Positions 19,839 through 22,927 of a stretch of 32,275 nucleotides of DNA are shown piece by piece. The position numbers and the translations under genes are program-made. The notes beneath the pieces were generated by a model, which made no database searches, was not told the origin of the DNA, and saw only the letters and a program-made list of their open reading frames with translations. Within the stretch, counting starts at the first letter, position 1, and every line of letters begins with the position of its first letter. This stretch comes from Paracoccaceae bacterium (GTDB lineage: Bacteria > Pseudomonadota > Alphaproteobacteria > Rhodobacterales > Rhodobacteraceae), in contig CANBRQ010000026.1 in assembly GCA_947371955.1 (NCBI GenBank), positions 1 to 32,275 on the forward strand, read 5' to 3'.

Positions 19839-21059
19839 CTACAGCCTGCGCACCGCCACCCAGCTTGCCGCAGCCATGGCCCCCGCCGTAGCAAGGCACA
19901 ACGGCAGCCCGCCCAACTGATAGCTGATGCCCGACAGCGCCGTGCCCAAAAGCCGCCCCGCCGCATTGGCCATGTAGTAGAACCCCACATCCATCGAGAC
20001 CCTCTCTGCCCGCGAGAAGGCCAGGATCAGATAGGAATGCACCGAGGAATTCACCGCAAAGACAAAGCCGAAGGCCATCAGGCCAAGCACCAACACCACC
20101 GTGAACCACATCGCCGGGGCGGCAAAGGACAAAGCCGCCAGCACCAGTGGAATAGGCGTCAGAATCGCCGCCCAAAGCACGGCCTTGCCGATGATGGCCG
20201 ACTCGGGCTGGCCCTTCGCCTTCAGAAGCTGCGGCGCAAAGGCCTGCACTGCCCCGTAAGCGATGGTCCACAAAGCCATGAAGCCGCCTATCAGGAAAAA
20301 CGCCGTCCGGCGGCCATCCGGGGTGCCATCCGACAGAACCGCCTGAAAATACACCGGAATCCCCACGACAAACCAGACATCCCGCGCCCCGAACAGAAAC
20401 ATCCGCGCCAGCGACAACTGGTTGATGCGCCTGTCCTTCGACCAGATCTGCGAGATCTTCGCCTCTTTCTTGCCCGGCGGCAGACCCTTCGGCAGGAACA
20501 GCACCACGGCTGCCAGGATCACCGCCAGCACCGCCGCCATCCCCCAGACTGCCGTCTTGAACCCCACCAGCGCCAGCAAGGCCGCGCCCAGAAAGAACCC
20601 CAGCCCCTTGACCGCGTTCTTCGACCCGGTCAGCACCGCCACCCAGCGGAACAGCACACCCTCCCCCTTCGGCGCCAGCACCTTGACCGCCGACTTGGAA
20701 GACATCTTCGCCAGATCCTTGGCCACCCCCGACACACCCTGCACCGCCGTGACAAAGGCAACCGAGGCCGCAATGCTCCACGCCGGGTCCAGTTGCGCCA
20801 GCGCAACCAAAGCGGCGATCTGCAGGCACAGGCCCGCATACAGCGTGGTCGCCAGCCCGAAGCGCGCCGCAATCCAGCCCGCGTAAAGGTTGGTCACCAC
20901 CCCGGCCAGTTCATACAGCAGGAACAGCCACGCCAGTTGAATAGGCGTGAACCCCAACCCGTTGAACTGCAGCAACACCAGCAGCCGCAACGCGCCGTCT
21001 GACAGCATGAAAGCCCAATAGGCCGCCGTCACCGCCACATAGGCACGAAGGCCGTTCAC
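19839..21059 (-). CDS. arsJ: Organoarsenical efflux MFS transporter ArsJ
   Basis: A 406-residue inner-membrane protein with about 12 hydrophobic segments, of the major facilitator superfamily. The stretches [53 protein letters not shown] and [16 protein letters not shown] match ArsJ. In the known pathway GAPDH uses arsenate instead of phosphate to make 1-arseno-3-phosphoglycerate, which ArsJ exports; outside it falls apart to release arsenate. The adjoining GAPDH gene overlaps it by four bases, exactly as expected for an ArsJ partner, which strengthens the call. Confidence 0.95.
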
Positions 21060-22066
21060 AGCGACCCTGCAACCATGCGAACCACATCAGCCAGACGGCA
21101 GGAATAGCCCCACTCATTGTCATACCAAGCGTAGATCTTCACCTGCGTGCCGTTCACCACCATCGTACTCGCCGCATCAATGATTGAAGACCTCGGGTCA
21201 TTCACATAGTCGGTCGACACCAAAGGCCGCGTCTCAAACCCCAGAATCCCCTTCAACACCCCCTCCGATGCCGCCTTGAACAGCCCGTTCACCTCCTGAA
21301 CCGAGGTCTCCCGTTCCACTTCAAACACACAATCGGTCAGCGAGGCATTCAAAAGCGGCACCCTTACCGCATGGCCATTCAACCGCCCCTTCAACTCCGG
21401 ATAAATCAGCGTGATCGCCGTAGCCGACCCGGTGGAGGTCGGGATCAGGTTCATCAAAGCCGACCGCGCCCGCCGCATGTCCTTGGCCGGACGGTCCACG
21501 ATGGTCTGCGTGTTGGTCACATCATGGATCGTGGTGATCGACCCATGCCGGATGCCAATCCCCTCATGAATCACCTTGACCACCGGGGCGAGGCAGTTGG
21601 TCGTGCAACTCGCCGCCGTGATCAGGTTGTGCACCGCCGGGTCATAAAGGTGATGGTTCACCCCATAGACCAGATTCAAAGCCCCGCCGTCCTTGACCGG
21701 GGCCGAGACGACCACCTTCTTCACCCCCGCCGCATAGTAGGGCGCAATCTTCTCGGCAGTCTTGAAAATGCCGGTGCAGTCGATCACCAGATCAATCCCC
21801 ATCTCCGCCAACGGCAAATCCTCGATCCGCTTCGCAGCGGTCAGCCGGATACGCTGCCCCGACAAGGTCAGGCTTCCGGCATCAAAAGAAATAGACCGGG
21901 GCCAGCGGCCGTGCACCGAGTCGAACTCCATCAGCAAGGCATGCTGTTCCGGCTCCCCCACCGGGTCGTTGATCAGAACGATCTCTCCGCCTGCCCCGCT
22001 GTCGATCAGGTCACGCAGGGCAAGCTTGCCAATCCGGCCAAGGCCGTTCAGGGCGATACGGGTCAT
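21056..22066 (-). CDS. gap: ArsJ-associated glyceraldehyde-3-phosphate dehydrogenase
   Basis: A 336-residue NAD-dependent GAPDH. The Rossmann motif is [13 protein letters not shown], the catalytic cysteine is Cys154 in [11 protein letters not shown], and the general-base histidine is His181 in [10 protein letters not shown]. The C-terminal [16 protein letters not shown] is typical. Its place between the ArsR-ArsC fusion and arsJ, with four-base overlaps at both ends, identifies it as the dedicated enzyme that forms 1-arseno-3-phosphoglycerate from glyceraldehyde-3-phosphate and arsenate, rather than the housekeeping glycolytic gene. That role is inferred from established ArsJ/GAPDH pairing. 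Confidence 0.95.
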
Positions 22067-22875
22067 GTGAGGCGTCCAATTCGGTCAAGGTTCTGTTGCA
22101 GCGCAACTTTCTGCAATTCGGCAAAGGGCAAAGCGGCAAAGGCCGTGATGCGGCGGTGCAGTTCGGCATAGGCTTGGGCGAAAGCGAGCGCCTTTTCGGC
22201 GTCAGTTCCAGTGGCCTTGACCGGGTCCGGCACACCCCAGTGCGCGGTCATCGGCTGACCCGGCCAAGGGGCGCATTCCTCGGCGGCGGACAAATCGCAG
22301 ACGGTAAAGACGAAATCCATCTGCGGCGCATCGGCTGCGGCAAACTCGGACACATGTTTCGACCGAAGCGGCGCGACGTCATGCCCGGCCCGCGCCAGAA
22401 CCTCGATCGCGAAGGGGTTCAACTGTGTGCCGGGGCGCGTACCCGCCGAATAGGCGGTGAAGCGCCCCTTCCCCGCATCGCGCAGGATGGCTTCGGCAAA
22501 GATCGACCGGGCCGAGTTGCCCGAGCAGATGAACAGCACATTCCAAGGACGGTCAGCCATGGCAAACTCCTTTGGGTGGATGTGGGCGGAAAGATCCGGG
22601 CGGCCGCGCCCGGCGTCATTGACCAGATAGCCGACAAGATCCGCCACCTGTTCCAGCCGGACGCTGTAGAACAAGGACCGCCCCTGCCGTTCGGCCTCGA
22701 TCAACCCGGCGGCTTCAAGGTCTGACAGGTGGTGCGACAGCGTATTGGCCTTGAGGTCCAGCGCCTGCGAAATCTCGGTCGGCCGCACGCCCTGCGGCGC
22801 AAAGCGCATCAGCAACCGGAAGACGGCAAGGCGTCCGGGATGGCCAAGGGTGGCGAAGGCGAGGCTCTGTTCCAT
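22063..22875 (-). CDS. ArsR-type regulator fused to arsenate reductase (ArsC, LMW phosphatase type)
   Basis: A 270-residue two-domain protein. Residues 1-95 form an ArsR/SmtB winged helix ([16 protein letters not shown], then [32 protein letters not shown]). Residues 108-245 form a thioredoxin-coupled arsenate reductase with P-loop CSGNSAR (Cys117 to Arg123), redox cysteines Cys193 and Cys201 and Asp217 in WGVPDPV. The DNA-binding half contains no cysteine, so the classical arsenite-binding thiols are missing there. An AAAGGAG (22567-22573) lies six bases before an internal ATG at codon 106 (22560), so a separate ArsC may also be made. It heads the operon with gap and arsJ. An inverted repeat and a Pho-box-like element lie upstream. 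Confidence 0.9.
22560..22573 (-). promoter_or_regulatory. Internal ribosome binding site and start for stand-alone ArsC
   Basis: Reading the minus strand, AAAGGAG (22573 to 22567) is followed after six bases by ATG (22560 to 22558), which opens [15 protein letters not shown], a natural ArsC N-terminus. The sequence is an optimal Shine-Dalgarno site inside the inter-domain linker (residues P101 to A105). It suggests either internal initiation or a remnant of formerly separate arsR and arsC genes. Confidence 0.6.
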
Positions 22876-22909: not shown

Positions 22910-22927
22910 GTGAAGGTTTTATGACAG
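22910..22927 (-). promoter_or_regulatory. Pho-box-like element upstream of the ars operon
   Basis: On the minus strand the 18 bases CTGTCATAAAACCTTCAC match the PhoB-box layout of two 7-base repeats 11 bp apart: the first repeat CTGTCAT is perfect and the second (CCTTCAC) agrees at 5 of 7 positions with CTGTCAC. A GATATT -10-like hexamer follows after 11 bases, similar to the spacing in phosphate-starvation promoters where the box replaces the -35 element. It lies directly behind the hisD-type stop codon. Control by PhoB is inferred. Confidence 0.55.

Follow-up and report, generated by a model that had tools for sequence, protein, structure and literature searches.

The ArsR-ArsC (ArsRC) fusion protein encoded in the window, i.e. 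the whole stretch of 32,275 nucleotides analysed here, is, as judged from comparison with its relatives, a genuine variant of a known fusion that has arisen repeatedly, in which the ArsR half has lost its arsenite-binding cysteines and the ArsC half has kept its catalytic ones. This pattern suggests that the enzyme half may now do the sensing, after the switch half lost its arsenite cysteines. Our preferred reading, to which we give a chance only just short of even, sees the protein as a one-component autorepressor that acts on an arsenate-export operon and would use the arsenate chemistry of its own ArsC half as input.

Architecture of the fusion protein

ArsR and ArsC lie in one reading frame (Table 1), and the product is thus an ArsRC fusion of repressor and reductase. 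The ArsR half is a winged helix-turn-helix (HTH) protein of the ArsR family, as indicated by matches to Pfam HTH_5/HTH_20, a score above cut-off for NF033788 and a fold match to PDB 6j05. The second half carries the ArsC signature, consisting of a Cys-x5-Arg P-loop (C117, R123), the redox pair C193/C201 and the Asp-Pro loop D217-P218, and its AlphaFold2 model matches D. indicus ArsC2 co-crystallised with arsenate (8p5n) with a TMt of 0.92-0.94. 

By residues and fold, this half corresponds to a thioredoxin-type LMW arsenate reductase with predicted reductase activity; as it scores 67 against the TIGR02691 equivalog cut-off of 174, its exact ArsC subtype is left broad. The AlphaFold2 monomer contains both domains without an interface between them, the linker (residues 98-106) and the domain orientation being undefined (pTM 0.60), and roughly 15 residues join the catalytic domain to the end of helix 5.

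Cysteine occurs in the 270 residues only at positions 117, 193 and 201, as read from the translation of 22063-22875 on the minus strand. Hence, the sequence-only reading was right in describing residues 1-116 as free of cysteine, although the interval it gave for them, 22563-22875, covers residues 1-104 of the fusion; its assignment of the three cysteines to the catalytic set of the reductase, here of LMW-ArsC type, agrees with their invariance across 115 aligned fusions. At a cysteine content of about 1%, 116 Cys-free residues are expected, by estimate, in roughly a third of proteins. Such a stretch alone is therefore weak evidence that could be due to chance, and its meaning comes from the alignment with relatives.

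Table 1 Positions of the fusion gene, its operon partners and promoter elements in the window
Feature	Position	Strand	Remarks
ArsR-ArsC fusion gene, 270 aa, first in operon	22063..22875	-	Pfam HTH_5/HTH_20 and LMWPc; NCBIfam HTH_metalloreg and arsC_pI258_fam
Residues 88-96 (AGRGRPDLS), place of the lost AfArsR-type arsenite triad	22588..22614	-	Alignments of 115 fusions and with AfArsR 6j05
LMW-phosphatase-type ArsC domain, residues 113-246	22138..22539	-	Pfam; AlphaFold2 model matches 8p5n
Cys117, P-loop nucleophile of CSGNSARS	22525..22527	-	Invariant, 115/115
Cys193, equivalent of pI258 ArsC Cys82	22297..22299	-	Invariant, 115/115
Cys201, equivalent of pI258 ArsC Cys89	22273..22275	-	Invariant, 115/115
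Operator-like palindrome TTCCTG-AATA-CAGGAA	22878..22893		Overlaps ribosome-binding region, 2 bp before ATG
Pho-box-like element CTGTCAT-AAAA-CCTTCAC	22910..22927	-	52 bp upstream of ATG; 2 bp after hisD stop
ArsJ-associated glyceraldehyde-3-phosphate dehydrogenase (GAPDH)	21056..22066	-	Start overlaps fusion stop; NF033735, 549.8 bits (cut-off 450)
ArsJ MFS transporter	19839..21059	-	Start overlaps GAPDH stop; NF033734, 530 bits (cut-off 400)

The missing arsenite site

Among relatives of solved structure, AfArsR from Acidithiobacillus ferrooxidans (PDB 6j05) fits the ArsR half best, and the half belongs to the AfArsR type (type 2), in which the As(III) site is a CC-x6/7-C cluster located where helix 5 ends. 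The positions of AfArsR Cys95, Cys96 and Cys102 are taken by Ala88, Gly89 and Ser96, so that this site is absent from the window protein, while relatives carry cysteine at these same three positions. The sites of R773 (type 1, Cys32/34/37) and CgArsR (type 3, Cys15/16/55) are equally missing from the Cys-free residues 1-116. The sequence-only reading had looked for the arsenite site among cysteines of the DNA-binding domain; the absence stands, but the site it had in mind is that of the R773 subtype, and the relevant one is the C-terminal site of the AfArsR type.

AfArsR no longer responds to As(III) when Cys95 or Cys96 is exchanged for Ala, but can do without Cys102 (PMC8470949). P. denitrificans ArsR1/2 carry the same triad as Cys92/93/100, and arsenite or diamide converts them to monomers (PMC9137774). 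In the cited papers, those ArsR proteins that have been characterised as arsenic sensors detect trivalent arsenic through cysteines.

Recurrent loss of the triad in the fusion family

Relatives of the fusion (E <= 1e-70) were found in 226 of 397 genomes of the window's bacterial family, and 115 fusions were aligned, 114 of which were counted after one duplicate had been dropped. The triad reads CCC in 59 of these, is completely lost in 43 and partly lost in 12, corresponding to at least 14 triad changes on a fusion tree that was built without the triad columns and has many weakly supported forks. Meanwhile, C117, R123, C193 and C201 are invariant in all 115 fusions, as are N120, S124 and D217, also catalytic residues, in a 15-sequence alignment. 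The states that replace the triad vary by lineage (AGS, AGT, LGT, VGL, FAA, SFL, VAS and others), and the largest Cys-less clade shares the conserved replacement motif D-V-G-R-A/G-R-P-D-L-L.

The proposal of the sequence-only reading that sensing occurs through the reductase domain is partly borne out by these data: the arsenite site was repeatedly dropped while the ArsC active site stayed, as expected from it, but about half of the fusions keep CCC and the loss tracks the ArsJ operon. A plain enzymatic role of ArsC would keep its catalytic residues invariant just as well.

Fusion alone as the cause of site loss was rejected because 59/114 fusions keep CCC; among ArsJ-linked fusions, too, about half are still CCC. 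The CC pair is kept in all 29 stand-alone ArsR relatives first inspected (a few of them near-identical) and also in AfArsR-type ArsRs near ArsJ in further loci.

That the ArsR half is merely decaying was likewise considered and rejected. In close pairs, dN/dS ranges from 0 to about 0.22 in the ArsR half, similar to the ArsC half, and amounts to 0.10 and 0.09 in the two halves for the window and its relative L009. The HTH columns vary less among Cys-less fusions than among intact ones, the Cys-less set also being less diverse overall. Furthermore, the TTCCTG repeat that had been pointed out from the sequence is real, forming a palindrome (Table 1), and a related palindrome directly precedes the ATG in both intact and Cys-less relatives. 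With HTH, dN/dS and operator all conserved, the Cys-less ArsR half is not decaying.

Operon context of the loss

Fusion, GAPDH and ArsJ genes are linked by overlapping stop and start codons and hence form an operon, arsRC-gapdh-arsJ, encoding an arsenate rather than an arsenite exporter; both export proteins score above their curated cut-offs. Genes handling As(III) (Acr3, AqpS or ArsA) lie downstream of 23 fusions, of which 22 keep the CC pair (21 CCC, 1 CC-) and one does not. The association between such a neighbour and the CC pair gives a Fisher P of 9e-6, or 7e-4 within ArsJ/GAPDH operons alone, both values ignoring shared ancestry. Conversely, 47 of the 50 CC-broken fusions are located in GAPDH/ArsJ operons without Acr3, AqpS or ArsA; the other three comprise one that also has acr3 (L199), one at a contig end (L131) and an orphan (L140, G285:C39). 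After ancestry correction, exporter type and cysteine loss were not significantly associated, pair tests that respect ancestry pointing in the same direction as the uncorrected ones, with low power.

Several loci deviate from the common operon layout. The Cys-less orphan L140 has no recognised arsenic gene within 5 kb downstream and is followed by an Hsp70-like ORF and nuo-like genes. In L165 (about 1022-2026 past the fusion stop) and L028 (about 924-2063), a similar secreted-looking protein (VCNQT/FCNET...YYYWRAT) is encoded between GAPDH and arsJ, and L139 carries a different insert resembling a membrane transporter. L179 and L183 (G007 and G001, same genus) contain a second, stand-alone arsC after arsJ, and their fusion triads are partly degraded (CGA and CCL).

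In the window's own genome, an assembly of 353 contigs, neither Acr3 nor a second ArsRC fusion was found, and the channel present is of AqpZ type, not aquaglyceroporin type. A divergent ArsB-like permease (contig C59, L289 3511-4818; 157 bits against a cut-off of 457) has no recognised ars neighbours in the stretch seen. Another ArsR with an arsenite site acting in trans is therefore improbable as an explanation within this fragmented assembly, the more so since the eight other ArsR-family loci examined in the genome belong by inspection to other subfamilies and none has the DCC motif.

Pho-box-like element

The element upstream of the fusion gene consists of tandem CTGTCAT-like repeats with 11-bp spacing near the promoter, as in a Pho box. 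When 20 pst loci from relatives were scanned with a matrix derived from fusion promoters, most gave sites immediately before pstS. The pst contig of the genome itself breaks off within pstC, and the reverse comparison therefore relied on regions upstream of pstS in relative genomes: with a matrix trained only on these sites, the window element scores 22.8 (shuffle threshold 10.1), and a site exceeding the 99% shuffle threshold occurs in 70/114 fusion promoters, in 54 cases at -52 to -54. The element accompanies, mostly at -52 to -54, 43/50 CC-broken fusions versus 27/64 others, a count made without phylogenetic control, and 25 fully intact fusions have it as well; after phylogeny, box and site loss were not significantly associated in corrected tests of low power. 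A genome-wide scan with the exact pattern, whose strictness explains the low yield, returned the fusion promoter and a single further site with no obvious Pho gene beside it. In one genome (G316, L332), the arsRC-gapdh-arsJ operon is immediately preceded by the pst operon. Overall, the element suggests phosphate control of the fusion gene, presumably by PhoB activation.

Proposed mechanism and alternatives

In the proposed autorepressor, a dimer of the ArsR half would bind the start-codon palindrome and block expression. Arsenate would be bound and turned over at Cys117-Cys193-Cys201 of the fused thioredoxin-type ArsC half. In pI258-type ArsC, arsenate reacts with the P-loop cysteine, attack by a second cysteine releases arsenite, and a Cys82-Cys89-type disulfide together with a moved helix persists until reduction by thioredoxin. 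The short linker that follows dimerisation helix 5 may then pass on the arsenylated and/or disulfide state, which would weaken dimerisation or DNA binding; this relay point would be exactly where arsenite binds in AfArsR. GAPDH makes 1-arseno-3-phosphoglycerate for export by ArsJ. In an operon that thus exports arsenate instead of arsenite, the older As(III) site would have become dispensable and been lost repeatedly. Through the Pho box, expression would peak in phosphate starvation, with arsenate entering through Pst, and arsenate-dependent release would act as a second condition. The broader claim that a widespread clade of ArsRC fusions consists of true As(V) sensors, in which the covalent reductase cycle instead of metalloid coordination by the repressor signals derepression, gated by phosphate starvation via the Pho box, is put forward more tentatively and with somewhat lower probability.

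Alternatively, arsenate, 1-arseno-3-phosphoglycerate or phosphate might be sensed as a pentavalent ligand by the ArsR half itself, at a new site free of cysteine, ArsC being just a co-expressed reductase. Regulation of this kind is seen in the V. cholerae var operon, where an unfused ArsR with a C-to-A exchange in its site shows As(V) induction (PMC9601151), and which therefore manages without a fused reductase. An unfused VSVG ArsR also accompanies GAPDH-ArsJ in locus L264, and the conserved replacement motif of the largest Cys-less clade would fit a new site. However, replacements differ among independent losses (AGS, LGT, FAA, SFL, VAS), unlike one new ligand site, and we know of no pentavalent-arsenic site in ArsR proteins. 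In addition, the ArsR of A. rosenii does not respond to As(V) (PMC11868830). We regard direct sensing by the ArsR half as unlikely.

A similarly low probability is assigned to the idea that PhoB mainly controls the operon and an arsenic-blind ArsR half only sets its level by autorepression. The frequency and position of the Pho-box-like element among CC-broken fusions, the entry of arsenate as a phosphate mimic and the pst operon next to the fusion gene in G316 speak for it, while the strong constraint on operator and HTH, the invariant catalytic set of ArsC, the intact fusions that have the box and the lack of significance after phylogeny speak against it. Channelled arsenite, i.e. As(III) made by ArsC and bound by residual ligands of the ArsR half or by the ArsC cysteines, has been proposed for the Paracoccus ArsRC fusion, as far as described in a review (Chen et al. 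2022, via PMC9479143), and arsenite is present in a pI258 ArsC structure (1lju). With a Cys-free ArsR half in the window protein, and with AfArsR triple or 95/96 mutants giving no response to As(III) (PMC8470949), it seems very improbable here.

Reversed ArsC-ArsR fusions

Six arsJ loci from other proteobacterial classes (L249, L252, L253, L256, L260, L265) encode fusions of opposite order, with ArsC N-terminal and an R773-like ArsR C-terminal (Pfam LMWPc, then HTH_5); the arsJ loci sampled from these classes are probably mostly gammaproteobacterial. The CxC motif reads LCVC in three of the six and LCVY, LCVN or LSVG in the others, and is hence partly or entirely lost in 3/6 reversed fusions compared to 2/24 unfused ArsRs in such loci, both being small numbers. 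This trend toward site loss matches that of the ArsRC fusions, with independent parts. If the As(V)-sensor reading is true, the same solution would have arisen a second time, with domains reversed and in other proteobacterial classes.

Significance and comparison with known systems

ArsR-ArsC fusions are already known (PMC6205960, PMC6514093; Chen et al. 2022, as cited in PMC9479143), and so is GAPDH-ArsJ. No report of recurrent arsenite-site loss in ArsJ-linked fusions, or of a Pho box on an arsRC-gapdh-arsJ operon, was found in a search outside which most subscription papers lay, and the Cys-less, Pho-linked ArsRC variant appears new. Nature here provides fusions that have or lack the arsenite site while the reductase is always intact, and this series allows a direct test of whether a reductase cycle can drive a repressor. 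It also bears on how bacteria distinguish arsenate from phosphate and would offer a basis for biosensors of arsenate instead of arsenite. In addition, it connects defence against arsenate with phosphate starvation, and does so in a fusion family that over half of the genomes sampled from the window's bacterial family contain.

AfArsR (6j05) and P. denitrificans ArsR1/ArsR2 (PMC9137774) share subfamily and fold with the ArsR half (TMt 0.80-0.88), including helix 5 leading into the site; As(III) binding by a CC...C triad is established or inferred for them, whereas the window protein has A-G...S. The ArsRC fusion of Paracoccus sp. (Chen, Galvan, Nadar, Yoshinaga, Rosen 2022, Environ Microbiol 24:1977) likewise combines ArsR and ArsC as repressor and reductase. 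According to its description in PMC9479143, on which the comparison is based, it senses As(III) from its own reductase, while the window protein has no cysteine ligand for that. In P. aeruginosa gapdh-arsJ (Chen et al. 2016, via PMC6205960), GAPDH and ArsJ form the same arsenate exporter pair, but PMC6205960 describes no fused Cys-less regulator. The thioredoxin-dependent ArsC of pI258 and B. subtilis and D. indicus ArsC2 (8p5n) resemble the ArsC half in P-loop cysteine and redox pair, yet are stand-alone enzymes without DNA-binding domain. Finally, in the V. cholerae var operon ArsR-VarG-VarH-ArsJ (PMC9601151), an ArsR with degraded As(III) site controls GAPDH and ArsJ, much as proposed for the window protein, and is As(V)-induced; unlike the window protein, this ArsR is unfused, and the dual-specificity phosphatase VarH is encoded by a separate gene.
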